A DNA stretch of 64,000 bases from the NCBI RefSeq assembly GCF_904846415.1, contig NZ_CAJHAR010000014.1, forward strand, positions 27,584-91,583. Reading direction: 5' to 3'. The notes under the pieces were generated by a model, which saw only the letters and a program-made list of their open reading frames with translations, was not told the DNA's origin and ran no database searches. Below, one piece after another: positions 2,846 to 50,861 of this stretch. Origin of the DNA: Psychrobacter piscatorii. Its GTDB lineage: Bacteria; Pseudomonadota; Gammaproteobacteria; Pseudomonadales; Moraxellaceae. Each line of letters opens with the position of its first letter. The first letter of the stretch is position 1. The translations under genes and the position numbers were made by a program.

Positions 2846-3748
2846 TTAATAGTAGCGCTTGATTTGCTCAGCTAAGAAGTCTCCTGCGACCTCATTAACA
2901 AGCGTACAATCTACCACGCCAAAGCGGCTATCTATATTCGGATTGGTGCTACCCTTGGCAACATAATTTGCCTCATAGATATCCTTTCCATACTCAACGC
3001 CACTATATTCATAGGCAGGTTGATTTTTATATTCAAAGAACATCACCTGCGCTGCTTTTTGCTTATTTGCTATACCAACACCAAACTGAGAGGTTCTATG
3101 ATCTCTGTCGTCACTAAAGCGTTGTTTGGCAGCGTCGATCCATTTTTCCAATGACGAATAGCCTGTCTTGTTTTTGTCGTTGAAAGCCAAGAATGAGCGC
3201 TCGCTTGTCACCACTGGAATATAACAAACGGAGCCTTCTGGAAACGCAACATTAGAGGGGATATTAGAGTAATTACTCAAATCGGTGAGAATACCTCGGC
3301 GGTCTTCGATATTCGTGCCAGCACTATAACTGCGGGTCGTTAGACCTGATAAGTTGAGTGTTTGGTAGGTGGTTTCGTAGCCTAGTTTGTTATTACTGTT
3401 TTTTTCATAAATAGGACGTTTGACCGTGCGCCCATTGACCTCGATGTCTTTGTTTTCGAGTCGACCTTCGAAATCATCTGCCAGTACCGTTCTGTCTAAA
3501 TCATTCAGGCTCTGATTGCTATAACTGTTGATGAGATTGGTAGTTTTGATGTTGCGTGCACCTGTGCGATAAGTCTCATCGATGCGCGCAATGGCAGTAT
3601 CGTTGGCCTTACTATCGTAACTATTGGCAAAGCTCGTCAGCGTAATATTGTCGCTATCAGAACCATAACTGCCGTCATCTACTTCGCAGCCTATCAAAGC
3701 AAGCATTGACCAGAAGAAAACACCAGATATCGCAACCACTCTATTCAT
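2846..3748 (-). CDS. Lipoprotein of unknown function
   Basis: The 300-residue protein begins with a short basic n-region and a hydrophobic core ending in the lipobox LIGC (Cys21), so it should be a membrane-anchored lipoprotein. The residues after the Cys (EVDDGS) are acidic; in E. coli an Asp at +2 retains lipoproteins in the inner membrane, but here +2 is Glu, so sorting is unclear. The rest is soluble and polar with no motif I recognise. An AAGGA ribosome-binding site lies 9 nt before the ATG. It is monocistronic with its own terminator. Confidence 0.7.
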   Translation of the reverse strand: MNRVVAISGVFFWSMLALIGCEVDDGSYGSDSDNITLTSFANSYDSKANDTAIARIDETYRTGARNIKTTNLINSYSNQSLNDLDRTVLADDFEGRLENKDIEVNGRTVKRPIYEKNSNNKLGYETTYQTLNLSGLTTRSYSAGTNIEDRRGILTDLSNYSNIPSNVAFPEGSVCYIPVVTSERSFLAFNDKNKTGYSSLEKWIDAAKQRFSDDRDHRTSQFGVGIANKQKAAQVMFFEYKNQPAYEYSGVEYGKDIYEANYVAKGSTNPNIDSRFGVVDCTLVNEVAGDFLAEQIKRYY

Positions 3749-4006
3749 CGAACAATGTCCTTATGATTTAGATTTTTTATCACCCAATTTGATGATATTA
3801 GTATGACCAACCACATGGCTGGCTTCGGTCATTCTGTTTATGAGTACCAGCATCTACTGTTATTGTAGATGGCTCTGAAAGTCATATTTACAAACTTGTC
3901 GTAAATATTTACTACCGACTTACTGAGCTGGGCTGATGATTTGTTATCCTAAGCTGCATATTTAGATTCACTATTCAAACCCAAAAACCACAACAAAGGA
4001 TGTGTT

Positions 4007-4420
4007 ATGAAAACTTTATATTCTACTAAATCTACTGTTACTGGCGGTCGTATGGGTACGGCAACCTTGAGCGATAGCGACCTTGAGATCAACATGACAC
4101 CACCAGGTGGCAATCAAAAAGGCAATAATCCTGAGCAATTGCTAGCTATGGGCTACGGTGCTTGCTTTGATGGCGCGCTTGGCGTGGTCAAAAAGATGGA
4201 AAACGCACGCTTTGGTTCCACAACTGAAACGTCTGTTGATTTGTTACAAGGTGACAACCACGAGTACAAACTCTCAGTAAAGATCCATGTAATCGCCGAC
4301 AACACTGATCTGTCAGCTGATGAGATCCAAAAACTGGTTGAAAAGGCGCATGACGTCTGCCCATATTCTAAAGCCACACGCGGTAATATCGATGTTGAAG
4401 TCTCTTCAGAAGTAAAATAA
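4007..4420 (+). CDS. ohr: Organic hydroperoxide resistance protein, OsmC/Ohr family
   Basis: This is a small cytoplasmic peroxidase that reduces organic (fatty-acid) hydroperoxides, with lipoyl proteins as the usual reductant. At 137 residues it has the normal Ohr length. The two catalytic cysteines are present: Cys53 in GACFDGAL and Cys118 in VCPYSKATRGNIDV, the latter motif separating Ohr from OsmC. The conserved active-site Arg lies near residue 15 (GGRMG). The ribosome-binding site is AAAGGA. No ohrR-type regulator is adjacent, so control by a distant OhrR is only a guess. Confidence 0.92.
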   Translation: MKTLYSTKSTVTGGRMGTATLSDSDLEINMTPPGGNQKGNNPEQLLAMGYGACFDGALGVVKKMENARFGSTTETSVDLLQGDNHEYKLSVKIHVIADNTDLSADEIQKLVEKAHDVCPYSKATRGNIDVEVSSEVK

Positions 4421-4472
4421 CGTATTATGAGACTCATTATCAATGATTAATTAAGAATATATTAATTATAGA

Positions 4473-4503
4473 AGAACTCAGCTGGTCTGGGTTCTTTTTT
4501 TGT
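4473..4503 (+). terminator. Intrinsic terminator after ohr
   Basis: A 9-bp stem (4473-4481 with 4487-4495, one G-T pair) has a 5-nt loop and is followed by a T-run. Confidence 0.75.
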
Positions 4504-4627
4504 TTGAAATTTTGGTGAAAAAATAAAACTGCTAGAACATCTCGTAACGGTTAAGCAGTTCGGCACGCACTGTTTTTATCGTTATAATAAGGGCATATTT
4601 TTATCTAATAGCTGATAAGTGACTTTT

Positions 4628-7606
4628 ATGACTGATAACATAGCTGACAATACCGCCGATAACGACCACAACTCCCATCAAGCACTCGATCCTAAAACCT
4701 TACCGAATTTTGACGACATGCCTAACGTCGCACTGATGGATACCAGTCACGTAGACAAAGATCAGCCCCCGTTTATCTTGGTTGACGGCTCTTATTATTT
4801 GTTTCGCACCTATCATGCCCTCCCAAAAACCATGCAAAACTCGCAGGGCCTGATTACCAATGCGATACGCGGCACATTGAACGCATTACTCAAACTCATG
4901 CGTCGTTATCACCCTACTCATATGGCCGTCTGCTTTGATACCAAGTCGCCGACTTTTCGCCATCATATGTCGTCTGACTATAAAGCAGCTCGTCCGCCCA
5001 TCGATATAGAACTGGTAGAGCAAATTCCTTATATTCATCGTTTGGTTAGCGCCTTGGGTATTCCGCTATTACGTATTGAGGGTGCAGAGGCCGATGATAT
5101 CATCGGTACACTTGCCCATCGTGCGGTCGAGCAAGGTCATCATGTCGTCATCTCAACCGGCGATAAAGACATGATGCAGCTGGTCAATGATTGCGTCATC
5201 CTAGAAGACAGCTTTACTGGTAAAGTCACGGATACACCAGCGGTTATCGATAAGTTCGGTATTAATCCAAACCAAATGATTGATTTTTTGACGCTCATGG
5301 GCGATGCCTCTGACGGTATCAAAGGTGTACCGGGCATTGGTAAAAAAACCGCCAAAGACTTGCTGGTTGAGTACGGTGATATCGAAAACATGCTCAAGCA
5401 TATTGGCTTTATCAAAGGTCGCGGGGCTAAAGGCTTGATCGAGCACGCCGATGATATTCCTTTTAATAGAAAGCTCGCTACCATCGTAACGAATTTGGAA
5501 ATCGGCCAAGACTGGAATGATTTAAAAATCAATACCGATCCTTGTGCACATATAGATGAGCTGCGCGAATTGTACAATGAGCTTGAGTTCAAAAATGAGC
5601 TGGCGTCGCTTGATCACCCAAACCATCCTGCAAATGGCTCACAAAGCGTTGCTGATAGCCAAGCCAATGCTGAGTCACAAGCGCAAGTTGCCAAATCGCT
5701 GCAATCTGCCAATATTGATAATATGACGGGCAGTAACCATGAAGATAAAGCGTGGCATACTGTACTCGACAAGCCTGCGTTTGATAGCTTGGTCAAATTA
5801 TTAGAAGCGGCTCCGCACTTTGTCATTGATACTGAAACCACCAGCGTCCATTGGCGTGACGCACAAATCGTCGGGCTGTCTTTTGCTGTGCAAGCGCATG
5901 AAGCCTATTATATTCCGCTCACCCATAGCTTAGAAGGTGATGAGCTGACAGCAAAACAACTCGACCGCGATACGGTATTGGCGCGCTTAAAGCCTGTGTT
6001 AGAGAATCCAAACATCGGTAAAATCGGACAGCATCTGAAATATGACGCGCACATCCTCGCTCACTATGATATTGACTTAGTTGGCGCCATACATGAGCAG
6101 CCAAATAACTGGGCGATGGATACCATGCTTGCCAGCTACGTCATCAATGCGGCAGCGACTCGCCACGGTATGGACGACTTAGCGCGCCATTATCTACAAA
6201 CGCAAACCATCAGCTTTGAGGAAGTCGCGGGCAAAGGGGCTAAGCAAGTCACCTTTGACCAAGTAGCTATCGATATCGCGAGCGACTACGCCTGTGAAGA
6301 TGCTGATATTACTTATCAGTTATTTGACGTGTTCAGCGTTGAGTTGGCTAACGATGCCAATAATGCCAAATTACTACACGAGCTAGAAATTCCAACGGCA
6401 GAGATACTTTGCCAAATGGAAGCACATGGTATTCTCATCAAACGCTCTTTCTTAAACGAGTTATCAAAGCGCTTTGATGAAGAAATCATCGCCCTAGAAA
6501 AACGTGCTTATGAAGTGGCAGGTGAAGAGTTTAACTTAGGATCACCTAAGCAGCTTGGTGAGATGCTGTTTGACAAGCTTGGCGTGCCGGGTGGCAAAAA
6601 AACCAAGTCTGGTCAATACTCGACTGGTGAAGCGGTCTTATCAAAAATCGATCACCCCTTGGTCGATATTACCTTAGAGTATCGCGGGCTGTCTAAGCTA
6701 AAAAGCACTTATACCGATGCACTCGATAATGTCGCAGATGCTGAGACCGACCGCGTGCACACCAGCTATCATCAGGCACTCACCAGTACTGGCCGTCTGT
6801 CATCAACCGATCCTAACTTACAAAATATTCCAATTCGTACTGCGACTGGTCGCCTGATTCGTCAAGCCTTTATTGCCCCAGAAGGTCGCGTGATCTTGGC
6901 CGCGGATTATTCACAAATAGAACTTCGTCTCATGGCGCATTTTTCAGGCGATAAGAACTTGACGCATGCCTTTAATGAAGGCCTAGATATTCATGCTGCG
7001 ACTGCCGCTGAAGTACTTGGCAAGGATGTTGCGGACGTAACCTCAACTGAGCGCCGTAATGCCAAAGCGATTAATTTTGGTCTGCTATACGGGATGAGTG
7101 CCTTTGGACTTGCCAAGCAATTACAAATGAGTCGCGGTGAAGCACAAGACTATATCGATATGTACTTTGAGCGCTATCCAGGCGTCAAGAACTATATGAT
7201 CAACACGCGTGCTAGCGCGTACGAGCAAGGCTATGTCGAGACGATATTAGGCCGTAAACTCTATACACCTGATATTAATCATAGCAATCGTATGGTCAAG
7301 CAAGGCGCTGAGCGTGCGGCGATTAACGCGCCACTACAAGGCTCTGCTGCTGATTTGATCAAACTTGCCATGATTGCCGTTGATAAGGTATTGCCAAAAG
7401 ATCAAGCTAAAATGCTGCTACAAGTTCATGATGAACTGGTGTTTGAAGTGGATGCCGATAAAGTAGACGCGGTTAGCCAATTGATTACCGATGCCATGCA
7501 AGATGTCTTGACGACTACGGCCGTAGATAAAGGCTGGCATGTCGACTTTGCTGTACCGTTACTAGTTGAGACTGATAGCGGTCAAAACTGGGATGAGGCG
7601 CATTAA
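4628..7606 (+). CDS. polA: DNA polymerase I
   Basis: This is the replication and repair polymerase that removes RNA primers and fills gaps. Numbering is from the upstream GTG at 4619, which gives 995 residues. A hydrophilic N-terminal extension of about 45 residues precedes the 5' nuclease domain (about 50-320). A low-complexity linker rich in S, Q, A and N follows. The 3'-5' exonuclease domain retains DTET (D404, E406) and YACEDADIT, but its second motif reads GQHLKYD where E. coli has GQNLKYD. The polymerase domain has motif A DYSQIELR (D763), motif B around NAKAINFGLLYG and motif C VHDEL (D938). ATG 4628 and GTG 4619 are both possible starts, and neither has a clear ribosome-binding site. 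Confidence 0.96.
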   Translation: MTDNIADNTADNDHNSHQALDPKTLPNFDDMPNVALMDTSHVDKDQPPFILVDGSYYLFRTYHALPKTMQNSQGLITNAIRGTLNALLKLMRRYHPTHMAVCFDTKSPTFRHHMSSDYKAARPPIDIELVEQIPYIHRLVSALGIPLLRIEGAEADDIIGTLAHRAVEQGHHVVISTGDKDMMQLVNDCVILEDSFTGKVTDTPAVIDKFGINPNQMIDFLTLMGDASDGIKGVPGIGKKTAKDLLVEYGDIENMLKHIGFIKGRGAKGLIEHADDIPFNRKLATIVTNLEIGQDWNDLKINTDPCAHIDELRELYNELEFKNELASLDHPNHPANGSQSVADSQANAESQAQVAKSLQSANIDNMTGSNHEDKAWHTVLDKPAFDSLVKLLEAAPHFVIDTETTSVHWRDAQIVGLSFAVQAHEAYYIPLTHSLEGDELTAKQLDRDTVLARLKPVLENPNIGKIGQHLKYDAHILAHYDIDLVGAIHEQPNNWAMDTMLASYVINAAATRHGMDDLARHYLQTQTISFEEVAGKGAKQVTFDQVAIDIASDYACEDADITYQLFDVFSVELANDANNAKLLHELEIPTAEILCQMEAHGILIKRSFLNELSKRFDEEIIALEKRAYEVAGEEFNLGSPKQLGEMLFDKLGVPGGKKTKSGQYSTGEAVLSKIDHPLVDITLEYRGLSKLKSTYTDALDNVADAETDRVHTSYHQALTSTGRLSSTDPNLQNIPIRTATGRLIRQAFIAPEGRVILAADYSQIELRLMAHFSGDKNLTHAFNEGLDIHAATAAEVLGKDVADVTSTERRNAKAINFGLLYGMSAFGLAKQLQMSRGEAQDYIDMYFERYPGVKNYMINTRASAYEQGYVETILGRKLYTPDINHSNRMVKQGAERAAINAPLQGSAADLIKLAMIAVDKVLPKDQAKMLLQVHDELVFEVDADKVDAVSQLITDAMQDVLTTTAVDKGWHVDFAVPLLVETDSGQNWDEAH

Positions 7607-7742
7607 TCATTGTTTTGGTCAACTTAGAACGCTAGCGAGCTTAAAGATATGATGGGTTTTGAAACCCACTGTATCGTCTATATAAACAACCACTTATGAC
7701 TACTTGGTTATATTCTATGACGTCGTTATTACCATATTGGGT

Positions 7743-7748
7743 TATAAT
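7743..7748 (+). promoter_or_regulatory. Candidate -10 box upstream of the 7845 gene
   Basis: A perfect TATAAT sits about 50 nt before the hairpin terminator at 7797 and about 95 nt before the next ORF. No good -35 element lies at the right distance, so this is a weak call. Confidence 0.3.
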
Positions 7749-7796
7749 AGCGTCATAGTAGATTATGCATATTTCGTTAGATATTTTTCGGTTTAG

Positions 7797-7821
7797 AGTG
7801 AGCCTGCGGGCTCACTTTTTT
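7797..7821 (+). terminator. Hairpin with T-run before the 7845 ORF
   Basis: An 8-bp G/C-rich stem (7797-7804 with 7809-7816) is followed by six T. It lies 190 nt past polA and only about 25 nt before the next ORF. It may end polA transcripts, or it may close a short transcript started from the TATAAT at 7743. Confidence 0.7.
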
Positions 7822-7844
7822 GTTTTTGACACATTCTTTTTGAT

Positions 7845-8288
7845 ATGCAGGAGCCAGTTATTTTGAGTTCAGATGGCATTATTGAAGCCCCCGGTATTAT
7901 CCTATTATTCATCTGCTTGCTACGCTGCACGCAATATTTTATAAAAAGTCACATCAAACAAGTTCAGTCCTTTTGGTTGGCTTCTGTACTTATATTTGTC
8001 GCTGTCATTCGTCGGGAGCTAAACTATCTACCAGATTTGTTGGTTCCGAGCGATTTCTCGTTTTTAAATCAATCTTATGATTGGTGGGAAGACAGTGTAC
8101 TGACCGTTATCTATCTCGTCGCGCTTGGCCTATTGGCCTATTCGAGGCACTACCTTTGGGCAGTATTAAAGAATGTGCCGGTCTCGCTCTACCTCATCGT
8201 TACCGCGCTGGCAATCATTCAATATATGGGAGAAAACGCCATTATGTTCCCGCATACATTTGGTGAAATTGTCGAAGAGTTGGCTTAG
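7845..8288 (+). CDS. Membrane protein, probably truncated by an in-frame TAG
   Basis: This 147-residue, strongly hydrophobic protein has three to four likely membrane segments (around residues 15-28, 42-55, 85-100 and 108-125). I do not recognise the family. A strong AGGAG at 7849-7853 lies 9 nt before an in-frame TTG at 7863, so TTG 7863 may be the real start rather than ATG 7845, which has no ribosome-binding site. The frame stops at TAG 8286-8288, but the same frame continues open for 36 more codons of membrane-protein-like sequence (next entry). The intact gene was therefore probably about 184 codons. Confidence 0.6.
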   Translation: MQEPVILSSDGIIEAPGIILLFICLLRCTQYFIKSHIKQVQSFWLASVLIFVAVIRRELNYLPDLLVPSDFSFLNQSYDWWEDSVLTVIYLVALGLLAYSRHYLWAVLKNVPVSLYLIVTALAIIQYMGENAIMFPHTFGEIVEELA

Positions 8289-8399
8289 ACTGTCATCTAT
8301 GGTATTGCCTTGACGTATTTATGGCGATTCAAACTGGCTGATTATGAATCATGTCTTGTGCAGAAATTAAACTATGAGCTCAAACACGCTGATAATTGA
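8289..8399 (+). pseudogene. C-terminal remnant of the 7845 membrane protein after the amber codon
   Basis: In the same frame as the ORF ending at 8288, codons continue TVIYGIALTYLWRFKLADYE and on to TGA 8397-8399. The segment is a hydrophobic helix followed by a polar tail, as expected for the missing end of the protein, and a terminator follows at 8466. I infer a point mutation to TAG, or less likely read-through. Confidence 0.55.
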
Positions 8400-8465
8400 A
8401 ATTATAGTCACGATACTATTAATGACGTAGTAACAAAGATCTTTTAAGCAATTTTATGAAAACTC

Positions 8466-8500
8466 ACGGCTGCTCAATATGAGTAGCCGTTTTGCATTTT
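8466..8500 (+). terminator. Intrinsic terminator after the interrupted membrane gene
   Basis: A 10-bp stem (8466-8475 with 8481-8490, one G-T pair) has a 5-nt loop and is followed by TTTTGCATTTT. Confidence 0.7.
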
Positions 8501-8664
8501 GGCAATTGCCTTACATTTTTTGAACATCCTGTCACACCTTACTACTAGTGAAAATCCCAATAACCGTACAAACTTATGGACAGATTATCAATGTCGCTAT
8601 AAGCAGCGCTTTTATAAGCCCTTACAATGACTTTACTGCTAATAATTACAATAAGGAATGACTT

Positions 8665-9015
8665 ATGGAAAACACAAAGAACCCACTACCAGAAGAGATG
8701 GATCATATCGATGGCAATCGCCGCGACAATAATGACAGCACTGACAATCAAGACAACCAGTTGGTCGATTTAGACAATCCGATGCTGCATACGATCGACA
8801 ACGATGATGTGATTGATAACAGTGCAGGGTTTGATAATTCAGAAGTCGGTAGTGCTGCTACGCAAGGATTAACACCTATGCATCGTCAAAACCTTGATGA
8901 ATCACGTGTGGATGAAGTTTTGGTTCAGGACAATCTTGATGATAATGATTATCCAGATACAATGGATATTGCTGATAGAGATGCCGCAGAGCGTAGTAAT
9001 GACGATGATTTTTAG
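8665..9015 (+). CDS. Small, highly acidic protein of unknown function
   Basis: The 116-residue protein is dominated by Asp, Asn and Glu and has no hydrophobic segment and no Cys or Trp, so it is probably soluble and disordered. The ribosome-binding site AAGGAATGACTT directly precedes the ATG. The gene stands alone between terminators. I recognise no domain. Its composition resembles small cytoplasmic stress or ribosome-associated proteins, but no function can be assigned. Confidence 0.65.
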   Translation: MENTKNPLPEEMDHIDGNRRDNNDSTDNQDNQLVDLDNPMLHTIDNDDVIDNSAGFDNSEVGSAATQGLTPMHRQNLDESRVDEVLVQDNLDDNDYPDTMDIADRDAAERSNDDDF

Positions 9016-9050
9016 AAATTAGCACCGCGGTTGATATAACCCTTTAGAGC

Positions 9051-9087
9051 AAAAAAGCACGCTTAATATCGTTAAGCGTGCTTTTTT
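9051..9087. terminator. Bidirectional terminator between convergent genes
   Basis: An 11-bp stem (9056-9066 with 9072-9082) is flanked by an A-run on the left and a T-run on the right, so it can act on both strands. It separates the acidic-protein gene from the reverse-strand membrane gene. Confidence 0.85.
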
Positions 9088-9148
9088 ATACCTAATAACT
9101 CTGTTTTCGTTCAAATTTTTGAGCCATACCATTCAAACTATTGATCAT

Positions 9149-10093
9149 TCAAACTATTGATAATGGTTGATCAGTCAGGACATCACGGTAGCTAATATAA
9201 CAATTCATCATTACCCATGGTACGGCTATGATAACTCCTAAACCTAATGTGATTTTTAGAAAAAATGGCAACACAATAATAAGACCCAGCCCATAAGCAA
9301 TCATTGGTAATATATTAGCTAAGTACCCTTTAAGACTGAGCTTCATTGCGCTTTTTGGGTCTAAACCATGCAATACAATCAATGCTGGAGCAAACCACAT
9401 TGCCATTGATAACAGTAAAAATAATACCAATGAGACTAAAATACTAAACACAAAAGGAGTCATTGGGAAGTCACTTATTTTTATCGCTTCAATATCCAAC
9501 AGGAGCGTTAAAGATATACCGCTAAAGAAAATTAATACAGGTATGAATACAACAGCTAGTCCAATTAAAAACAGAATATTCAGAATAATGATAGATCTTA
9601 AGTTTGTTTTGAGCTTAACCCAAAGCTGATGGAGGTCAAGATTTTCATTCTGGAACTGTGCTGAACAAATAAGTATGATAATAGCCGCTGCTATGATGCT
9701 TGTAGCTCCAAAGATATAATCAATTATAGGAACATAAGAACCTATGATTGAAATGGCAAACAATATGACACTGACGGCTAACCATGTTAAAAAGTTACCT
9801 TTAAACATTTCAAAAGGCTGAATTATCCACTTTATCCCCCATGATACTTTACAAAATCTTGGCTCATCCAATAATTGCGGTAAAAGATTACCATATTCGT
9901 CCATTGGCGGAAGGCTTGAAGGTTGGCCATTGGGTTTCTGTACTGATATATATGGTTCCGAACTACTAACGTTAGATATATTGATCCTCAAAAATAAAAT
10001 CTCACAAATACAAATCAAAAAATCATATAAAACGAAATCTGTTTGGACTATTTTACATATCGAATAGTATAAAACCCAACTTTTATTTATCAA
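9149..10093 (-). CDS. BPSS1780-like multi-pass membrane protein
   Basis: The C-terminal two-thirds carries about six hydrophobic helices. The layout (GIKWIIQPFEMFKGN followed by paired helices, then a cytoplasmic loop with HQLWVKLKTNLR) resembles BPSS1780-family inner-membrane proteins, which have no known function. The first about 35 residues of the open frame (MINKSWVLYYSIC onward) look unlike the family, so translation probably starts later, near a GAGG at about 9988-9991 or at Met64 (MDEYGNLL). No convincing start codon follows the GAGG, so the start is left at the longest frame. The gene is more AT-rich than its neighbours. Confidence 0.6.
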   Translation of the reverse strand: MINKSWVLYYSICKIVQTDFVLYDFLICICEILFLRINISNVSSSEPYISVQKPNGQPSSLPPMDEYGNLLPQLLDEPRFCKVSWGIKWIIQPFEMFKGNFLTWLAVSVILFAISIIGSYVPIIDYIFGATSIIAAAIIILICSAQFQNENLDLHQLWVKLKTNLRSIIILNILFLIGLAVVFIPVLIFFSGISLTLLLDIEAIKISDFPMTPFVFSILVSLVLFLLLSMAMWFAPALIVLHGLDPKSAMKLSLKGYLANILPMIAYGLGLIIVLPFFLKITLGLGVIIAVPWVMMNCYISYRDVLTDQPLSIV

Positions 10094-38711: not shown

Positions 38712-39040
38712 GAGAATATATCCTATTGGTTGGGTTATGCCTCCACATCACAAAAACAGCCTATTTAGCGACACGCATCTGCTATCGGTTAGTTTTCATC
38801 AGTACAGCACTAACGGATCACAAATTAATCAAGTCGCCAAACACCCAGCAATTTTTTGCCATGATGTGTGTGTCATTGGTTGGTTTAAAAAAGAAGCTAT
38901 GGTCAGATTCAAAAAAATTTCAAATCTAAACTATAAAAATAGCTGCGCTGTATTTTATCACATAACGCCTTTGAATCTCCAGCAGTTTGTTGGTAGCGTA
39001 TCAATAAGATAGAAAGCAAAAGTTATGGATAGAAAGATAA
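38712..39040 (-). promoter_or_regulatory. rpsB leader region
   Basis: This is non-coding upstream sequence of rpsB. It contains a possible stem, ACTAAC/GTTAGT (38788-38793 with 38809-38814), and a GGAGGCATAACCCAA-like segment close to the gene, resembling the S2-binding leaders described for gammaproteobacterial rpsB. Autogenous control by S2 is inferred. ORFs in this stretch have no coding character. Confidence 0.4.
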
Positions 39041-39070
39041 AAAAAAGCGACACATTCGTATCGCTTTTTT
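39041..39070 (-). terminator. Terminator of the CheX operon
   Basis: A 10-bp stem (39041-39050 with 39061-39070) made of AAAAAAGCGA/TCGCTTTTTT lies 42 nt past the last gene. Confidence 0.8.
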
Positions 39071-39111
39071 ATTTCTGGCTTTAGACTTTATATGAATGGT
39101 TTCATATTAGA

Positions 39112-39561
39112 TTATGCAATACAGATACCAATCACAGCCTTGTAACCACGCCATGTGAATGGTGTGATATAGCTTTGGCGATCTCTAGGTAAGTAAGACA
39201 CACTTGGTGCGCTTTCAACGATCTGCGGCGGAGAGATAATGAATTCAGAACCAAATTCTGTACGCGCATTACCAGAGATGGTATTGGCCATTTCACCCAG
39301 CAAGTCTTTCATCATTGTGATCGAAGAGTCAGGCTCACCCATCACTTTTATCACTTCTCGCAACATTACGCTTGGTGCGCTGACATAGACGCAACCTTCA
39401 AGAGGCCCTGATATCTTAATGACACCACTATAATCAAAACCGATTGCCGTTTTATTGTTGTTCAAATAAGGGGTATCGATAGATACTTCTGAGCCATCGA
39501 TCTGCGCAAAAAATGCATTGATCGAGCTTAGAAACACACCCAACTTTTCTACTTTAAACAT
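39112..39561 (-). CDS. CheX-type phosphatase, copy A
   Basis: A 149-residue CheC/CheX-fold protein. The catalytic pair E-x-x-N is present as Glu90 and Asn93 in DLLGEMANTISGNA. CheX proteins dephosphorylate CheY-P. It is the last gene of a five-gene operon and follows a paralogue of the same length across 38 nt. Copies A and B share the layout but differ widely outside the motif, so they are old duplicates. The likely substrate is the CheY-like regulator two genes upstream. Confidence 0.85.
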   Translation of the reverse strand: MFKVEKLGVFLSSINAFFAQIDGSEVSIDTPYLNNNKTAIGFDYSGVIKISGPLEGCVYVSAPSVMLREVIKVMGEPDSSITMMKDLLGEMANTISGNARTEFGSEFIISPPQIVESAPSVSYLPRDRQSYITPFTWRGYKAVIGICIA

Positions 39562-39599: not shown

Positions 39600-40049
39600 T
39601 TAGTCCTGCAAACAAACCACAATCTCGCCAACTTGTGAGTGCCAAGTGATGGGAATGATAAAAGAACGCTCATCGTTTGGCAATACAATACTTTGCGGTG
39701 CGCCTTTGAATACGAAGGGTACAGAGATATGAAACTCTGCACCAAACTCTTTGCGCGCATTGCCCGCGATTGTATTGGCAACTTCACCAGCCAAGTCGAT
39801 GTAGTTTTCCTCACTCTTATCGGTTTCGCCCATGCTGTCCAATATTGAAGACAGTAACTCACGGGTCGCCGAAAAATACACAACGCCTTTCTGCGCGCCT
39901 GATATACCGATAACACCGGTATAATCGTGGACTTTTGGCTGTTTGTTTTCTAACAAGTAAGGCGTATCAGCAATTAGCTCTTCTCCACCAAACTGATTAA
40001 AATAGTTACTAATAATACTCAAAAAAATCTGTAGCTTTTGTTCTTTCAT
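39600..40049 (-). CDS. CheX-type phosphatase, copy B
   Basis: This is the second 149-residue CheX paralogue, with Glu89 and Asn92 in DLAGEVANTIAGNARKEFG. It has the same fold and active-site spacing as copy A. It lies 30 nt after the response regulator stop, so the three products are made from one transcript. Two copies may form a heterodimer (CheX acts as a dimer in Thermotoga) or act on different phosphoproteins. Confidence 0.87.
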   Translation of the reverse strand: MKEQKLQIFLSIISNYFNQFGGEELIADTPYLLENKQPKVHDYTGVIGISGAQKGVVYFSATRELLSSILDSMGETDKSEENYIDLAGEVANTIAGNARKEFGAEFHISVPFVFKGAPQSIVLPNDERSFIIPITWHSQVGEIVVCLQD

Positions 40050-40079: not shown

Positions 40080-40442
40080 TTAGTCTTGCATCAGCTCATA
40101 TAAAGACTCTACGAGCTCTTCTTCTGAGAAGGGCTTGCATAAGAAACCGCTAGCACCCAATGATAAGGCTTCGATGCCAGTGGCTTTATCAGACAATGCC
40201 GACACCACCAAAATGCGTACATCAGGATCAATCGCAATGATTTTTTCGATACATTCAAGACCATCCATTTGTGGCATGGTCAAGTCCATCGTGATCACGT
40301 CAGGACGATGAATGTTGAACTTTTCAATGGCTTGAACGCCACTAGTTGCGGTAGCAACCAGCATGAACTTTCCTGAGTCATATGCGCGCTGAATACGGTT
40401 TCTAATAATATTCGAATCATCAACAATCATTAATTTATGCAT
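40080..40442 (-). CDS. Single-domain CheY-like response regulator
   Basis: A 120-residue receiver domain without an output domain. The acidic pair Asp8/Asp9, phosphoacceptor Asp53 (VITMDLTMPQMDG), Ser81 (VVSAL) and Lys103 (CKPF) are all present. It lies between the CheA-like kinase (62 nt upstream) and the CheX genes, so it is the obvious relay partner. With no flagellum genes in view, its target is unknown; a phosphorelay to another protein or a diffusible signal is possible. Confidence 0.9.
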   Translation of the reverse strand: MHKLMIVDDSNIIRNRIQRAYDSGKFMLVATATSGVQAIEKFNIHRPDVITMDLTMPQMDGLECIEKIIAIDPDVRILVVSALSDKATGIEALSLGASGFLCKPFSEEELVESLYELMQD

Positions 40443-40504: not shown

Positions 40505-42712
40505 TTAAGCTTTTGGTAACGTAATGACGAACCGTGTCATCTGACCCAGCTCACTATTTACGTTCAGCTTGCCATTGTAGTCTTTTACTTGCGCTTTGAT
40601 AATATCAAGTCCAACGCCGCGTCCACCATCTTCATCTGCATGCTCTTTGGTTGAGAACCCAGAAGAAAATAACTGCTTGAGTAAATCGCCTTGACTGAGT
40701 TGACTTGCTTCTTCCTCACTAAAGCGACCTTCTGTGCTCAGTTTATTACGGATGCTGTCATAATCGATACCTTGACCATCATCTTGTACGACCAGTGTGA
40801 CATCTGAACCATTGTCTTGTACTTCTAAGTCAATCGTTCCAATTTCAGTCTTACCAGCAGAATGACGAACACTTGGTGCTTCGATACCATGCACGACAGC
40901 ATTTCGTAGTAACTGGATACTAATTTCTTTGATTGGCTTTGCAAGATGCGCCGGTATCTCCGTTTGCGTCAGCGTATTGCTTTTTAGCTGTACTTGTTTG
41001 CCTTGTCTAGCGGCAATCTCTTTTGCAAAATCGTTGTAAAAAGACAGTCGATCATCGTTTTCGTTATCTAGATCAATCTCTAGACCACCATCAGTGTCGA
41101 TGCTGTTTACTAGCTGATGGTTTGCAACCGCCGCTTTTGACACACTGCTGTTTAAGATATCATCACTAGACGCTATGGTTGTTTTTGCTGTCGCCGCTTT
41201 AGGTGGTGCTGAGCGGTTAATGCGTTCGCCTAAGGTTGCAATGGTATTTGATAGACTCAACAAGTCATCTAAGTGTACTGCCAACTGTAAGAAATCATTA
41301 CCCGATAGCTGACCTTGATTTTGCAAGGCATGCAGCTTATCTTCTGCCTCTGAGGCAATTTTGGTAAAGCTATGCAATTTCAATGCAGAAGCCTCACCTT
41401 TCAAGCTGTGCATTTCACGATAGATAGCTTTTAGCTTCCCTTCTAGCTCGTATTGTGAGCTACCAGGGTTTTTCAAGATGTTGTTCATACGCTCAATATG
41501 CGCTTGGGTATTGCTAATGAACTCATTAATGATTTTTGGATTTACATTCAAGATAGTGGTTAACATCTCAATCTGCATATCATTCTGCGAACGCTCTTTT
41601 TCTAAACGCTGCTCTAAGTAAACAGCATCTGACACATCATTGACGTTGACCAAAATACGAGCAATGTCTTTATTTTCATAAACACGTGAGAATTTAAAGT
41701 CTAAGAAACGATTATTAAGACCTTTATCATCAGAGCTGTTATGTAGCATCACTTTGTGCAAAGGATTTAGAGAATCTACCAATTTTTCTTTAACTCGAGG
41801 ATTATAGAGCTGCTCAATGAACTGCTGAGTGGTCTTAAGATCTTTGTCAGAAATACGACCACGCAAGACATTGGTAAAGTTCTCTCCTGCTAGCCTATCA
41901 GAACCGACAATACCGTTAAGCGCGCGCGAGTGCTGTTGACCAATATTTAGGTCTTTATCAAGTAGAAATAGACCTGTATTTACCGTTTCCATAATTTCTT
42001 GCGTTTCGCGACGAGCAGCAAATGCCTCAGCATCCGTCTCACGTAAGCGGCGTACAAAGAAGAATACGAAGATCAAGAAGTAGGCAAAAATCGCAACAAC
42101 CCCAAGTGCCTGAATCAAACGAATGGTATTGGCTTGGCGTTCTGCGTCATCAAACACTTCGTTGGTCAAATCATCTAATGATTCGTTCATTAGCAAACTT
42201 GAGGTTTTCGCCTGCTCTACCGCCTGAGTCAAGTCATCTGATGAATCGACCAATACGTTATCAGCATCTTTTAAGTAAGTTTCGATTCTAGGCTCAAGTA
42301 GTTGCCATTGCTGGTTTGCCGCTTGTACACTTTCTTGCGCACTGCCACTAACGCTCGGTAGTTTATACGTTTTACCATCAGCATCGTCGGTAATCGTGCC
42401 GCCTTGTCCGATAGCCGTCAACGTATTGTTAATCAGTGCTGTATTCTGTTCCAAACGCTCTAATACGCGCTGAATGTGTGGCGAGTTGGTATCTTCACCG
42501 TAACTGCTATCCAAATCGAACAAATCTTTAATTACCGACTGTGCGCTGTTTGCTACTTGGTTGGTCTGATCAATCAATACGGTATTTCTTTCAAGCAAGC
42601 TTGAGGTATAGAAAGTAAATGCAAGCAAAGCACCGATCAAAGACAAAAACAGTGCAATCGAAATAATCAAGCCGCGATAACGTTTGTTATCTCCATTATT
42701 TATTGTAGCCAT
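40505..42712 (-). CDS. Membrane-bound CheA-like histidine kinase
   Basis: The protein has 735 residues. TM1 (about 14-34) and TM2 (about 200-220) enclose a periplasmic sensor of about 165 residues, predicted helical. A PAS-like domain follows (about 240-365; GLFLLDKDLNIGQQHSRALNGIVG). Then comes a coil and an Hpt domain with phospho-His435 (REMHSLKGEASALKL), a low-complexity linker, and a CheA-type ATPase domain: N box LLRNAVVHGIE (Asn604), G1 DDGQGID, and GGRGVGLDIIK. The chain ends right after the ATPase, so the CheW-like P5 domain is absent. It lies 12 nt after the solute-binding gene. Confidence 0.88.
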   Translation of the reverse strand: MATINNGDNKRYRGLIISIALFLSLIGALLAFTFYTSSLLERNTVLIDQTNQVANSAQSVIKDLFDLDSSYGEDTNSPHIQRVLERLEQNTALINNTLTAIGQGGTITDDADGKTYKLPSVSGSAQESVQAANQQWQLLEPRIETYLKDADNVLVDSSDDLTQAVEQAKTSSLLMNESLDDLTNEVFDDAERQANTIRLIQALGVVAIFAYFLIFVFFFVRRLRETDAEAFAARRETQEIMETVNTGLFLLDKDLNIGQQHSRALNGIVGSDRLAGENFTNVLRGRISDKDLKTTQQFIEQLYNPRVKEKLVDSLNPLHKVMLHNSSDDKGLNNRFLDFKFSRVYENKDIARILVNVNDVSDAVYLEQRLEKERSQNDMQIEMLTTILNVNPKIINEFISNTQAHIERMNNILKNPGSSQYELEGKLKAIYREMHSLKGEASALKLHSFTKIASEAEDKLHALQNQGQLSGNDFLQLAVHLDDLLSLSNTIATLGERINRSAPPKAATAKTTIASSDDILNSSVSKAAVANHQLVNSIDTDGGLEIDLDNENDDRLSFYNDFAKEIAARQGKQVQLKSNTLTQTEIPAHLAKPIKEISIQLLRNAVVHGIEAPSVRHSAGKTEIGTIDLEVQDNGSDVTLVVQDDGQGIDYDSIRNKLSTEGRFSEEEASQLSQGDLLKQLFSSGFSTKEHADEDGGRGVGLDIIKAQVKDYNGKLNVNSELGQMTRFVITLPKA

Positions 42713-42724
42713 ATCAATCGTCCC

Positions 42725-43597
42725 TTAGTTTGCTTGTTCAGTGGTGGCAGAAGTACTGGTACTGGCTGTTGGATTTGCTGTCTCACCAAGCCAGCGAGCT
42801 TCGATTTCTTTAAACTTACCTTCCGCCTTTAGCTTGGTAATACCGTCATTGATTTTGTTAATGAGCTCAGTATTACCTTTTGCCATCAAAATAACCTGCT
42901 GTGCTGATGGGTTGTCTTGCCCTTCATAAGGAACGATGGTTACTTTTTGCTCAGGATGGTTTTTTGCCGTATATTGCAAGATAGGTAGATCATGCAAAAT
43001 CGCATCTACTTTGCCTTGCATTAAATCTTCATACAATAAAAAGGCAGTCGTTCTGGTCGAGAAATTGTTGTACTTACCCATTTGCTGTGCTTGATCAACT
43101 TGCTTAGAGCCTTCCATCGCAGAGATATTTTTGCCTTGCAAATCATCTAAATTATTGATATTTAGTTCTGGTTTTGCATACATGATAGCGGCAGGGTTAA
43201 AGAAATAAGGCTGAGATAATCCATACTTAGCGTCACGCTCATCCTTATAAGAGATGCCTGAAATCGCCAAATCGCGACTACCCGACTCTACTGTGTCGAA
43301 CATGTTTTGCCAGGTTTCTTTATAAAACTCAACTTTGAACCCTTCTTCTTCGCCAAGCGCGCGAATAGAGTCAATGTCAATGCCCTGCATATTGCCATAG
43401 TCATCTTGGAACGAGAATGGAGGCATCGTACCTGTTGTCGCCACTTTCAGAGTTGGCGCCGTATCAGGCAATTTACTAACAAAACTGTCCTTGTTTTCTG
43501 TTACTGGTGCACTAGTATTTTCCTGAGTGGAAGAATCACCACAGCCAAATAGGCCAATACTCATGACCACTGGTAACACTCGATATAACTGCATCAT
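42725..43597 (-). CDS. Solute-binding lipoprotein (SBP_bac_3 family)
   Basis: The protein has 290 residues. A lipobox GLFGC (Cys19) and an acidic/Thr-rich linker precede a periplasmic amino-acid-binding fold: LKVATTGTMPPFSFQDDYGNMQGIDID, then DLAISGISYKDERDAKY and YFFNPAAIMYAK. No ABC permease or ATPase gene accompanies it. It is the first gene of the operon, directly upstream of the sensor kinase. I infer it delivers a ligand (probably an amino acid) to the kinase's periplasmic domain rather than to a transporter. Confidence 0.85.
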   Translation of the reverse strand: MMQLYRVLPVVMSIGLFGCGDSSTQENTSAPVTENKDSFVSKLPDTAPTLKVATTGTMPPFSFQDDYGNMQGIDIDSIRALGEEEGFKVEFYKETWQNMFDTVESGSRDLAISGISYKDERDAKYGLSQPYFFNPAAIMYAKPELNINNLDDLQGKNISAMEGSKQVDQAQQMGKYNNFSTRTTAFLLYEDLMQGKVDAILHDLPILQYTAKNHPEQKVTIVPYEGQDNPSAQQVILMAKGNTELINKINDGITKLKAEGKFKEIEARWLGETANPTASTSTSATTEQAN

Positions 43598-43871: not shown

Positions 43872-43910
43872 AAAAAGCACCCATATATCTAGAATATATG
43901 GGTGCTTTTT
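43872..43910 (-). terminator. Terminator after the MFS transporter gene
   Basis: A perfect 17-bp stem (43872-43888 with 43894-43910) has a 5-nt loop and A5/T5 ends. It insulates the transporter gene from the next operon. Confidence 0.9.
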
Positions 43911-43942
43911 ATAAGTACGTAATTTACGATAAGACCTTGTAT

Positions 43943-47408: not shown

Positions 47409-50400
47409 CTAAATCATTTTCCACGTCATGTCATTTTCGCTCAAACGATGATAATTTAGCTGAGGGTAAGCCGATAAATCCACGTTTTGTAAATTATTCA
47501 GTGCAGTAAGTAGTGCCTCATAATAAGGCTCAATCATCGCAAATTGTACTGGTGTTGTATGCTGTACATTCAATAAGCACTTGTCCTCTAAGTCTTGGCT
47601 AGCCTGACGTAGCTGCGGCACTCCTGTATAACGACTGCCGCCCAATATGCGATGAGCAATTTGTGCCAATAAGTTACGATCACGAGCTTCCCATGCTTGA
47701 GTCAGTGCTTGCTTTTCCTCGTTAATCGTATCGAGCATCATAATGATGAGCTTGGCGGCCAAATCAGGTTTGTTTGCTGAGCGAGTAAGCGCATCTTGCC
47801 AGTCTAAAACATCAGACGTATCCGTTGTACTGAGGTTTTTTTGATGAAGGTTGTGATCCGTTTGCTCATATAGCCTTTTATCCATATTCGCTGTTATGTC
47901 TTCAGCAGAATTATCTATCGGTTCTTTTGGTGGATGCAATAATGATTCTTGCCCTTGCTTATGTAAACGTAGGCTCTCATAGCGAGGCTGGTTCTCACGG
48001 GTGGTCTCTCGTCTATAATCGTCACGGGGCTGACTGTCACGCAAGTAGTCATCACGGATTTTTTTCAGTGATAATGGTCGAGTGACTTTTGGCGGTTCTG
48101 TGATTTCAGTCCTATTACGAACGCTTTCGTTGTCTTTGACCATCGGATAAATGGCGGTCTTTTGATCTGAAAGCGGCGTGGATTGTTCTGTGAGATTTAA
48201 ATTTTCAGAGTCAGTATTTTGTAAGTTAGAAGCTTGCAAATCAGTATCAGGCAACGCTGTTAGTTGCGGCGTGGTGCTTTTTCGGCCTAGCCACTTTTGT
48301 AGTACTTGCAATAACTGAGGTTGGCTGATTGGTTTGCCAACGTAGTCGTTGATACCACTGGCGATAAGTTTATCACGCTCATCAGCTAGGCCATGTGCTG
48401 TCAGGGCGATAATAGGAATACGACTGTCCGTAGCCTCAATATTGCGAATTTGCTTGGCTGCTTCATGACCTGACATGCGCGGCATTTGGATATCCATGAA
48501 TATCAAATCGATATGATTTTTGTCTTGGGCAGCGATTTTATCTTCGATCCCCATATCTTCAGCATAAAATGTATTGCTTGATTTTTTGTTGACCTCATCA
48601 CGTGTTTCGGCTTTTGAGAGTTGCGTTTTATTCGATAGACTCTGCTTATCGTTTTTAGCAGATTTGATGTTTTTGGTTTGTTGTTTGCTGATAATCTCTA
48701 TTGCATCAAAGCCACTGCTCGCTGTCATTACCTGAATGCCAAGCTCGCTCAGCAATGCATCGAGCACCAATAAGTTTGGCAGGTGATCATCAACGGCTAA
48801 TACGGTTACGCCTTTCCAGCGTGGTTCTTGTAGGCTCTTTGGCATACTACGGTTTTGTGTATCGAGCATCGCGTACAGCTGTCTTTTGTCCAATGGCTCA
48901 TACAAGATATTGGCTTGATAACGGTTTAGCAGCGCTTGGTCAGCCGCCACTTGATAGCCAAATACGGCAAGTTTGCCTTGATAATGTAGCCGTATCTGCT
49001 TGAGTAGCGCCATCATATCGTCTTGCGTGTCATCATCAACAATAACCCAATCCCAAAAGTTGCCATGCTCTTTGAGTGACTCGAGCACCCCTGGCAATGA
49101 ATTGGCTTGGGTAAGTTTAATCGGCAAGTACTGCAAGCTGGCCTTCAACACTTGTATTGAGGCGGTATGACTGATCCAAACCAATACGTTAAATTCATCA
49201 GTCTCGCTCGCAAGCGGTGCCAATATCGGTAGCTCGATAGTCTGACCAGTTGGTGCTTCTAACACATCGACATGTGCTGGCATGCGAAACCAAAACGTCG
49301 CGCCTTGATTGGCGATGTTCTCTTGAGCATTGTCATGAAAGCCGATATCACCGCCCATCAAACGCGTTAATTGCTTGGAGATAACCAGTCCCAATCCCGT
49401 ACCACCATATTGGCGCGTGATTGACGGATCACCTTGGCTAAAGCTCTGAAACAGCATTTTTTGATCAGCAAGCGAAATACCTTTACCACTGTCTTGCACG
49501 CTAATCATCAAATAGTTATCACGATGATCGTCCAAGCTGACCCGTACGACCACATCGCCACTATCTGTGAACTTGATGGCATTCCCCACTATATTGGTCA
49601 ATACTTGCTTAAGGCGTAGCGCATCGCCATTGATACGCATGGGCACATCGTTATAGAACAATACGGCCATACGCAGACCTTTCTCCGCAGAGACAGGAGA
49701 AAGCATATCAACCACATCATAAATGGTGTCATACAAATCAAACTCATGACGATCAAGCACTAGCTTGCCCGCCTCAATCTTAGAAAAATCTAGAACGTCA
49801 TTGACCAAAGCAAGCAGGTGAGCTGAGGATTTGCGGATGGTCTGTACGTATAAATCCTGTTCAGGATTGAGCTCACCGTGACGCGCTAATAAGTTAATAA
49901 AGCCATCGATACTGTTCAACGGCGTGCGCAGTTCGTGACTGATATTGGCCAAAAATGCTGACTTGGCTTGGCTGGTCGAGATGGCGGCATCACGCGCATT
50001 TCGAATAGAGATATTTTGCATTTCCATCTCATCAAATGCCAAACGCAGATCGTCTTCGGTTTGCTCGGCATGGTCTTTAAGCTCTTGAAAACTTCTATGG
50101 AGGCGACGGAATGTCTTGACCAAATCTTGCTGTAATAAATTAAGCTCACCGTCCGACTCTACTGGTACAGGCTGATATAAGTTATCGACATGGGTACGTT
50201 GTAATTGCAAACGCAGCTCATAGATAGGTGCAATCCAACGTTTTGAGTAAATATTTAAGCTGAGTAGTAAGATTAAAATAGTGAACAAGCCGGTAATGAC
50301 CAGCGCCATCGCAATACGATAACGGGCGATATAGAGAGGTTCATTATCCATATCGACCAGCAGCCACAACGTCTGCCCTTCAAACTCACCCAATACGCTG

Positions 50401-50861
50401 CCATATGCCGTGCCTACAGGCGTTGGTTTTTGCGATAAAAACTTTGCTGAATCACTGATTAGCGGCCATTTCTCGTTCAGACCATAGCCTACAGTGGCCA
50501 GTACTTGATTGCCCTCATTGATAATAGCAATACGCTGTACGTGTTGCTCAGACTGCATACGCCCGAGTTTATCTTGTATGCTTTCGAGCGTCGTCATCGC
50601 CGTTTGCGACGCATCCGCCGCGCCACTACCTATTTGCTGACGCTCTTGCTCTAATAAATCAGGAATCAGCTCTGCAATGGCAGGTGTGTAACGAATCAGC
50701 ACCGCTTCAGCCAACACTTCTTGCTCAGAATCGCTCGCTCGCATGGTTTCGTGAAATACCAAAATACCGCCCACCGCAGCCAACACGCAGATGGGTAAAA
50801 ACACCAGTATAATCAGCTGCCCATAGGCACTGCTGGTATTGAAACGTTTTTTATATGCCAT
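47409..50861 (-). CDS. gacS: Hybrid sensor histidine kinase GacS/BarA
   Basis: The protein has 1150 residues: TM1 (about 13-35), a periplasmic domain, TM2 (about 183-203), HAMP, HisKA with His309 (ANISHELRTPLN), HATPase with NIVGNAIKF and GGTGLGL, a degenerate receiver (about 555-670), a true receiver with Asp790 (DLIFMDIQMPRMSG), a linker and C-terminal Hpt His1070 (AHRILGGSRYTG). It phosphorylates GacA and controls the small RNAs of the Rsm/Csr system. The receiver carries a roughly 50-residue polar insertion (about 727-780) between helix 2 and strand 3. Position opposite cysM-rlmD-relA matches Pseudomonas. Confidence 0.92.
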   Translation of the reverse strand: MAYKKRFNTSSAYGQLIILVFLPICVLAAVGGILVFHETMRASDSEQEVLAEAVLIRYTPAIAELIPDLLEQERQQIGSGAADASQTAMTTLESIQDKLGRMQSEQHVQRIAIINEGNQVLATVGYGLNEKWPLISDSAKFLSQKPTPVGTAYGSVLGEFEGQTLWLLVDMDNEPLYIARYRIAMALVITGLFTILILLLSLNIYSKRWIAPIYELRLQLQRTHVDNLYQPVPVESDGELNLLQQDLVKTFRRLHRSFQELKDHAEQTEDDLRLAFDEMEMQNISIRNARDAAISTSQAKSAFLANISHELRTPLNSIDGFINLLARHGELNPEQDLYVQTIRKSSAHLLALVNDVLDFSKIEAGKLVLDRHEFDLYDTIYDVVDMLSPVSAEKGLRMAVLFYNDVPMRINGDALRLKQVLTNIVGNAIKFTDSGDVVVRVSLDDHRDNYLMISVQDSGKGISLADQKMLFQSFSQGDPSITRQYGGTGLGLVISKQLTRLMGGDIGFHDNAQENIANQGATFWFRMPAHVDVLEAPTGQTIELPILAPLASETDEFNVLVWISHTASIQVLKASLQYLPIKLTQANSLPGVLESLKEHGNFWDWVIVDDDTQDDMMALLKQIRLHYQGKLAVFGYQVAADQALLNRYQANILYEPLDKRQLYAMLDTQNRSMPKSLQEPRWKGVTVLAVDDHLPNLLVLDALLSELGIQVMTASSGFDAIEIISKQQTKNIKSAKNDKQSLSNKTQLSKAETRDEVNKKSSNTFYAEDMGIEDKIAAQDKNHIDLIFMDIQMPRMSGHEAAKQIRNIEATDSRIPIIALTAHGLADERDKLIASGINDYVGKPISQPQLLQVLQKWLGRKSTTPQLTALPDTDLQASNLQNTDSENLNLTEQSTPLSDQKTAIYPMVKDNESVRNRTEITEPPKVTRPLSLKKIRDDYLRDSQPRDDYRRETTRENQPRYESLRLHKQGQESLLHPPKEPIDNSAEDITANMDKRLYEQTDHNLHQKNLSTTDTSDVLDWQDALTRSANKPDLAAKLIIMMLDTINEEKQALTQAWEARDRNLLAQIAHRILGGSRYTGVPQLRQASQDLEDKCLLNVQHTTPVQFAMIEPYYEALLTALNNLQNVDLSAYPQLNYHRLSENDMTWKMI

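Follow-up and report, generated by a model that had tools for sequence, protein, structure and literature searches.

Our analysis indicates that a five-gene unit of Psychrobacter piscatorii likely encodes a membrane-bound, CheA-like receptor-kinase, which would read an amino acid through a separate solute-binding lipoprotein (SBP) and pass phosphate on to the CheY encoded with it, a route that probably needs neither CheW nor chemoreceptors. ORF coordinates and Pfam matches placed the unit on the minus strand of the 64,000-nucleotide stretch of DNA analysed (hereafter the window), in the order SBP, kinase, CheY, CheX1 and CheX2, with intergenic gaps of 12, 62, 30 and 38 nt. The SBP ORF (43597-42725), the kinase ORF (42712-40505) and the 12 nt between them agree with an earlier sequence-only reading of this DNA. 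Terminator-like hairpins flank the unit on the minus strand: one separating the SBP from the MFS gene upstream (43872..43915; −23.1 kcal/mol, z −8.3), revealed by folding energy and not flagged by a pattern scan, and one with a T run after CheX2 (39036..39078; −15.3 kcal/mol, z −5.5), found by both. The three folded internal gaps (62, 30 and 38 nt) displayed no excess structure. Together with the flanking hairpins, this makes it likely that the five genes share one transcript. Pattern matches occurred at chance level, both promoter-like (13 found, 14.1 expected) and terminator-like (4 found, 3.7 expected); the scan gave one 10-of-12 promoter-like match inside CheX1, upstream of CheX2, and two weak terminator-like matches inside CheX1. 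Near the unit lies a large hybrid kinase gene (47409-50861, minus strand; 1150 aa) with receiver and Hpt-like parts recognised by eye.

The kinase (minus strand, 40505..42712; 735 aa) was delineated by Pfam, structure matches and an AlphaFold2 model. Its segments, all on the minus strand, are a predicted TM1 with a type-A periplasmic four-helix bundle (aa 9-197; 42122..42688), a PAS-like domain (aa 247-359; 41636..41974), an Hpt domain (aa 389-501; 41210..41548; Pfam Hpt aa 394-483, E 5.8e-08) carrying His435 (codon 41408-41410), and a CheA-type P4 ATPase running to the protein end (aa 553-735; 40508..41056; Pfam HATPase_c 600-734, E 9.5e-17). In the model, each predicted TM helix makes up one end of a long helix (9-69 and 158-243, respectively), and aa 247-359 were modelled as a PAS-like alpha/beta unit (pLDDT 77, pTM 0.34, a score at which the model does not give the domain arrangement). 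Pfam found no PAS domain in the window kinase; a relative (L201) displayed weak PAS matches, best E 0.003. The C-terminal 171 residues correspond to CheA P4 of solved structures up to the last strand (1i58, E 1.4e-29), with nothing after it, and P4 is 36% identical to that of T. maritima. Pfam matched neither a CheW domain nor a P3 dimerisation domain in the kinase, and aa 503-551 are a low-confidence linker in the model; according to the available part of a CheA survey (PMC10542144), HMMER often misses P3. The sequence-only reading had proposed a two-TM sensor with a PAS-like domain, an Hpt with His435 and a CheA-type ATPase ending before P5/CheW, and these features were borne out, respectively, by the model, by Pfam together with the invariance of His435 in readable aligned relatives, and by the P4 match and the lack of a Pfam CheW match. 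Public names of the homologues include ‘ATP-binding protein’, ‘Hpt domain-containing protein’ and ‘chemotaxis protein CheA’.

At the CheA N-box, Gln600 replaces His and Val607 replaces Asp, so kinase activity is not to be assumed. A catalytically dead or decaying kinase would be compatible with these substitutions, and also with one copy that carries stop codons (L090, genome G030) and another that is split by ~1.9 kb of intervening DNA (L091, G002). We nevertheless regard this explanation as very improbable: no readable row (75-76 from Psychrobacter and 20 others) departs from Gln600, Asn604, His435, the DDG or the glycines, which indicates purifying selection. Downstream, a single-domain CheY-like receiver (minus strand, 40080..40442; 120 aa) has its Asp53 (codon 40284-40286) where the earlier reading put it, and D8, D9, D53, S81 and K103 are invariant in 76/76 Psychrobacter and 20/20 other rows. 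It is followed on the same strand by two CheX-family phosphatases of 149 aa that share 47% identity, CheX1 (39600..40049; PF13690 E 3e-21; motif E89..N92) and CheX2 (39112..39561; PF13690 E 6e-19; motif E90..N93). The E and N of this motif, which we take to be the phosphatase motif of CheX, are kept in 78/78 Psychrobacter and 18/18 other rows, a single-CheX locus being counted for both genes. Kinase, CheY and CheX thus keep their catalytic residues without exception in Psychrobacter, Moraxella, Cellvibrionaceae-type, Neisseriaceae and Cardiobacteriales relatives.

CheX was detected in 84 of 105 Psychrobacter genomes (83 above the curated cut-off), with two copies in 81, and the locus was read in 79 of the 84. 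All 53 wide loci, meaning those read for 4 kb or more beyond the kinase on its upstream side, contain CheY, the kinase and both CheX genes. In 51 of them rpsB and the MFS gene form the flanks; the two others, L071 and L072, have neither. Gene order, which the earlier reading had named as a check, is therefore conserved. Across the order, the kinase segment was matched at E 1e-10 or better in 27/293 sampled genomes and strongly (>200 bits) in 15/293, five of them from the window's genus. Named hosts are Psychrobacter, Moraxella, Cellvibrio, Rappaport (Cardiobacteriales), Alysiella (Neisseriaceae) and Conchiformibius, with further kinase-family proteins in Aestuariirhabdus and Cellvibrionaceae. 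At 20 non-Psychrobacter loci, CheY was present in 20/20, CheX in 18/20 and the kinase-CheY-CheX core in 18/20; L185 has CheX on the other strand. Separately, a Treponema MAG contig (L190) ends in a kinase-segment match with CheY upstream, a possible transfer or binning error.

These partners bear on whether the kinase is instead an accessory of a Pil-Chp array, linked indirectly through CheW/PilJ and feeding mainly PilG/PilH. In the window genome, a single MCP and two CheW domains lie together in another, Pil-Chp-like cluster, which comprises the MCP, a stand-alone CheW and a ChpA-like protein of 2305 aa; almost all hosts also have pilus genes. Both points favour such an arrangement. However, the kinase has no P5 for CheW binding, and the loci outside Psychrobacter bring their own CheY and CheX at the frequencies given above; we consider an accessory role unlikely. 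The same facts (the missing P5, the MCP and CheW in a separate cluster and the recurrent core) fit the standalone status proposed in the sequence-only reading. Its description of Psychrobacter as non-motile also fits: no FliM was found in the window genome, and PMC4754876, in its available part, describes the genus as generally non-motile. That source reports cheY and cheX in 16 Psychrobacter strains and, in the same part, other chemotaxis and flagellar genes as absent, except cheR in four. A self-contained kinase system, if confirmed, would explain this cheY/cheX pair without other chemotaxis genes.

The SBP (SBP_bac_3; minus strand, 42725..43597; 290 aa; Pfam E 2.3e-34) has a lipobox Cys19, assigned by eye, and a predicted amino-acid clamp formed by the conserved Arg121 (minus strand, codon 43235-43237) and Asp203 (codon 42989-42991). 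Both residues are kept in 73/73 aligned rows of at least 250 aa (72 ORFs, with the window SBP entered a second time), and positions beside the clamp, Ser62 and His202, vary in this alignment. The equivalents of Arg121 and Asp203 in GlnBP, HisJ and LAO clamp the alpha-carboxyl and alpha-amino groups of the ligand. By this analogy, the kept pair beside variable positions suggests that the SBP likely binds an alpha-amino acid, with a variable choice of side chain. Two or three tandem SBPs occur in 7/43 wide A-like loci with SBP, and in L036 and L080 some of them belong to the other subtype.

Alternatively, the SBP might be a relic or belong to an amino-acid importer, lying upstream by chance of a kinase that senses alone. 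The SBP of L060 is 69% identical to that of the window (42725-43597) beside a 99% identical kinase periplasmic domain, so SBP alleles can change alone; type C kinases (see below) and some Moraxella kinases, if functional, also do without an adjacent SBP. Against this alternative, no permease or ATPase matches were found in 9/9 stretches of 5-8 kb around unlinked SBP copies or at three operon loci (window, L036 and L080), using one permease and one ATPase query that both matched at a control ABC locus. Judged by neighbouring genes in the stretches searched, the SBPs do not look like parts of an ABC importer; a transporter encoded elsewhere in the genome could still serve them. Even where the two are unlinked, the SBP family goes with A-like periplasmic domains, and in relatives binding proteins of other families fill the slot. 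We judge a chance neighbour improbable, if a shade less so than the accessory role. Several scattered amino-acid-type SBP lipoproteins per genome, with no transporter genes seen adjoining, were also observed in Moraxella genomes and one Psychrobacter genome (L209-L213, L217-L219).

Reading through a dedicated SBP, our preferred explanation, agrees with what occupies the outer-domain slot. Among the 79 loci, 59 combine a type A outer domain with an SBP and six a diverged A form (~50% identity) with an SBP; another A-like form occurs once with and once without SBP, nine loci have type C without SBP, and three are cut off or lack the kinase. An SBP, counting fragments found by tblastn, adjoins the kinase in 66/67 A-like loci versus 0/9 type C loci. 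The SBP is thus not obligatory for the kinase: 9/79 loci lack it and have the other outer domain instead. BLAST finds no match between types C and A, whose identity in global alignment is 16-19%; type C was modelled as a bundle like that of type A, with a hairpin. Nor does an SBP adjoin the Moraxella lacunata-type kinases or that of L072. Upstream of other related kinases (L132, L195 and, as two ORFs, L185) lie sugar-type Peripla_BP_4 lipoproteins, and still others contain a dCache (L085) or PilJ domain (L196). In L132, from a Moraxella MAG, the sugar-type lipoprotein precedes two tandem kinases (3697-6090 and 7228-9534).

SBP distances correlated with periplasmic-domain distances (raw r 0.90) far more than with cytoplasmic ones (0.35; 62 loci). 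Controlling for the cytoplasmic part, r was 0.88 (62 loci), 0.82 after dereplication (42) and 0.39 within type A alone (38), with 0/2000 permutations reaching each value; linkage confounds these figures, since SBP and periplasmic domain adjoin and one recombination tract may carry both without functional reason. Exchange breakpoints sit where homology resumes. Copies that are not adjacent to the kinase are free of this confound. Four genomes with an A-like kinase (45-50% identical to A) but no SBP beside it were tested, and all four carry orphan SBP copies elsewhere (170-244 bits); the L125 genome, also of this kind, lay outside the four. The best unlinked copies scored 244 bits in G108, 173 in M. 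lacunata (G390), 170 in M. caprae (G391) and, for kinase copy 1 of G296, 202; this last SBP copy has an internal stop, and a second in that genome (194 bits) has none. Genome-wide best SBP matches were 66-79 bits in 9/9 type C genomes, no higher than the background of 58-92 bits in 18/18 genomes without the system, of which eight were tested for kinase absence and ten for CheX absence alone; the next-best SBP of the window genome scored 77 bits. The cut is not sharp, as the adjacent SBP of G107 scores 97 bits, near the background of 92, and an unlinked SBP in the same genome scores 262. Locus presence, distances, the core tree, genome-wide matches and strain exchange all point to a binding protein that is dedicated to the sensor domain, being encoded with it or evolving with it. 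At the level of sequence, SBP and periplasmic domain are evolutionarily coupled. The sensing through a binding protein that had been proposed from sequence alone gains support from their joint exchange, from SBP presence and absence genome-wide and from the other binding-protein families in the slot.

In some close strains, most of the difference lies in one DNA block that spans the SBP and the outer part of the kinase. P. immobilis 1617 (L160) and Psychrobacter sp. 1044 (L157) have flanks that are 96-98% identical (2608/2707 upstream, 3343/3396 downstream), and their kinases match at 1497/1531 positions from aa 221 to the end. Between these parts, the SBP after the signal peptide is identical at 453/810 positions (55.9%) and kinase aa 1-197 at 344/591 (58.2%). 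Identity drops ~48 codons into the SBP and returns near kinase aa 199, where TM2 starts by eye; a second dip, to ~75%, covers ~100 nt around the SBP start. The main block recurs in L142/L143, with 426/795 in the SBP and 349/591 in kinase aa 1-197, beside conserved upstream (2557/2722), kinase aa 221-end (1470/1531) and downstream (3267/3396) parts. L145/L157 has the same block, but its kinase cytoplasmic part matches at only 1295/1531 (84.6%), so other tracts vary too. These alignments indicate that SBP and outer kinase part are exchanged as a DNA block between some close strains. A quick-method core tree (72 loci, 863 columns) requires 13 changes of the sensor label, and its starred branches force at least three changes for type C and at least four for the diverged A form. 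L045 shares an identical core with L008 and L043 and carries the other sensor subtype. Sister pairs with 100% SH-aLRT join type A with SBP to type C without (L074/L075 and L037/L089). A sign test on independent pairs gave p 0.25, and cannot reach significance with only three starred pairs; a few of 200 pairings lose one pair.

In the mechanism that we propose, ligand-loaded SBP would dock on the periplasmic four-helix bundle, and the signal would run from the bundle through TM2 and the PAS-like domain. P4 would then phosphorylate His435 of the Hpt domain, from which phosphate would pass to Asp53 of CheY, and both CheX proteins would strip it off again. Since CheY has no DNA-binding domain, the target of CheY-P is likely a protein that it binds. 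Of 21 genomes with the kinase, six have FliM and 20 have PilP; the one without PilP carries a PilT-family ATPase. The flagellar switch therefore cannot serve as the target in general. (The draft genome G191 has two family kinases, no PilP match and PilT-family ATPases.) Type IV pili would be the likeliest single target, one that we regard as possible and fall somewhat short of favouring outright; the link is weak, because genomes without the kinase also carry pilus genes (PilP in 5/6 tested Psychrobacter genomes). With the same front end, CheY-P could instead serve a non-motility output, for example a surface polysaccharide or cyclic-di-GMP enzyme. The single-domain CheY, an operon without an obvious target gene and pilus genes that do not distinguish kinase-bearing from kinase-free genomes all suit this option; no conserved neighbour in the loci read points to such a target, and we hold it to be conceivable though rather doubtful. 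Equally tentative is a broader idea: flagella-less bacteria might steer type IV pili by this receptor-kinase, trading SBP and docking domain between strains as a cassette and so retuning one kinase-CheY-CheX engine to new nutrients, with several SBPs per kinase in some species. The strain-to-strain cassettes are natural domain swaps for studying how binding protein and sensor domain communicate.

Compared with CheA of the F, ACF and Tfp classes, the kinase shares the P4 ATPase, a P1-type Hpt and CheY and CheX partners; it differs in its predicted TM sensor, PAS-like domain, mid-protein Hpt, lack of P5/CheW, lack of a recognised P3 and Gln in place of the N-box His. A CheW domain occurs in 100% of the CheA proteins in the survey, as given in its available part (PMC10542144). 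The definition published there would accept the CheA-type HATPase and the Hpt domain with conserved His; it also asks that there be no sensor domain, and the model has two long helices and a periplasmic bundle. With no CheW/P5 and its own predicted sensor domain, the protein was accordingly rejected as a CheA. It would rather work like a CheA fused to its receptor.

LuxP-LuxQ, TorT-TorS and XylFII-LytS use ordinary histidine kinases and phosphorelays with transcriptional outputs. Like them, the present system encodes a binding protein with the kinase, and the periplasmic part is modelled as a helical bundle; among the best 50 matches of this modelled part, the sole bundle was LytS-N of the XylFII complex. 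Unlike them, it has CheA-type catalysis, CheY and CheX, an amino-acid-type SBP, tandem SBPs and cassette exchange. As these three are described as kinases activated by binding proteins in the available part of PMC6321045, the present system would be grouped with them by function if docking were proved. The chemoreceptor pairs Tar-MBP and CtpL-PstS, covered in the same part of that source, likewise read a binding protein with a helical ligand domain and use chemotaxis-type kinase chemistry, whereas here receptor and kinase are one protein and Pfam finds no CheW, CheR or CheB among the five genes. The CheX proteins share PF13690 and the E..N motif with Thermotoga CheX and related structures; they differ in that two diverged copies stand beside one CheY. 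If our reading is correct, a chemotaxis-type pathway has been cut down to one membrane kinase, an SBP, a CheY and phosphatases, with no receptor array. SBP-dependent sensors and CheA chemistry are each known separately, and their joining here is likely a new combination.
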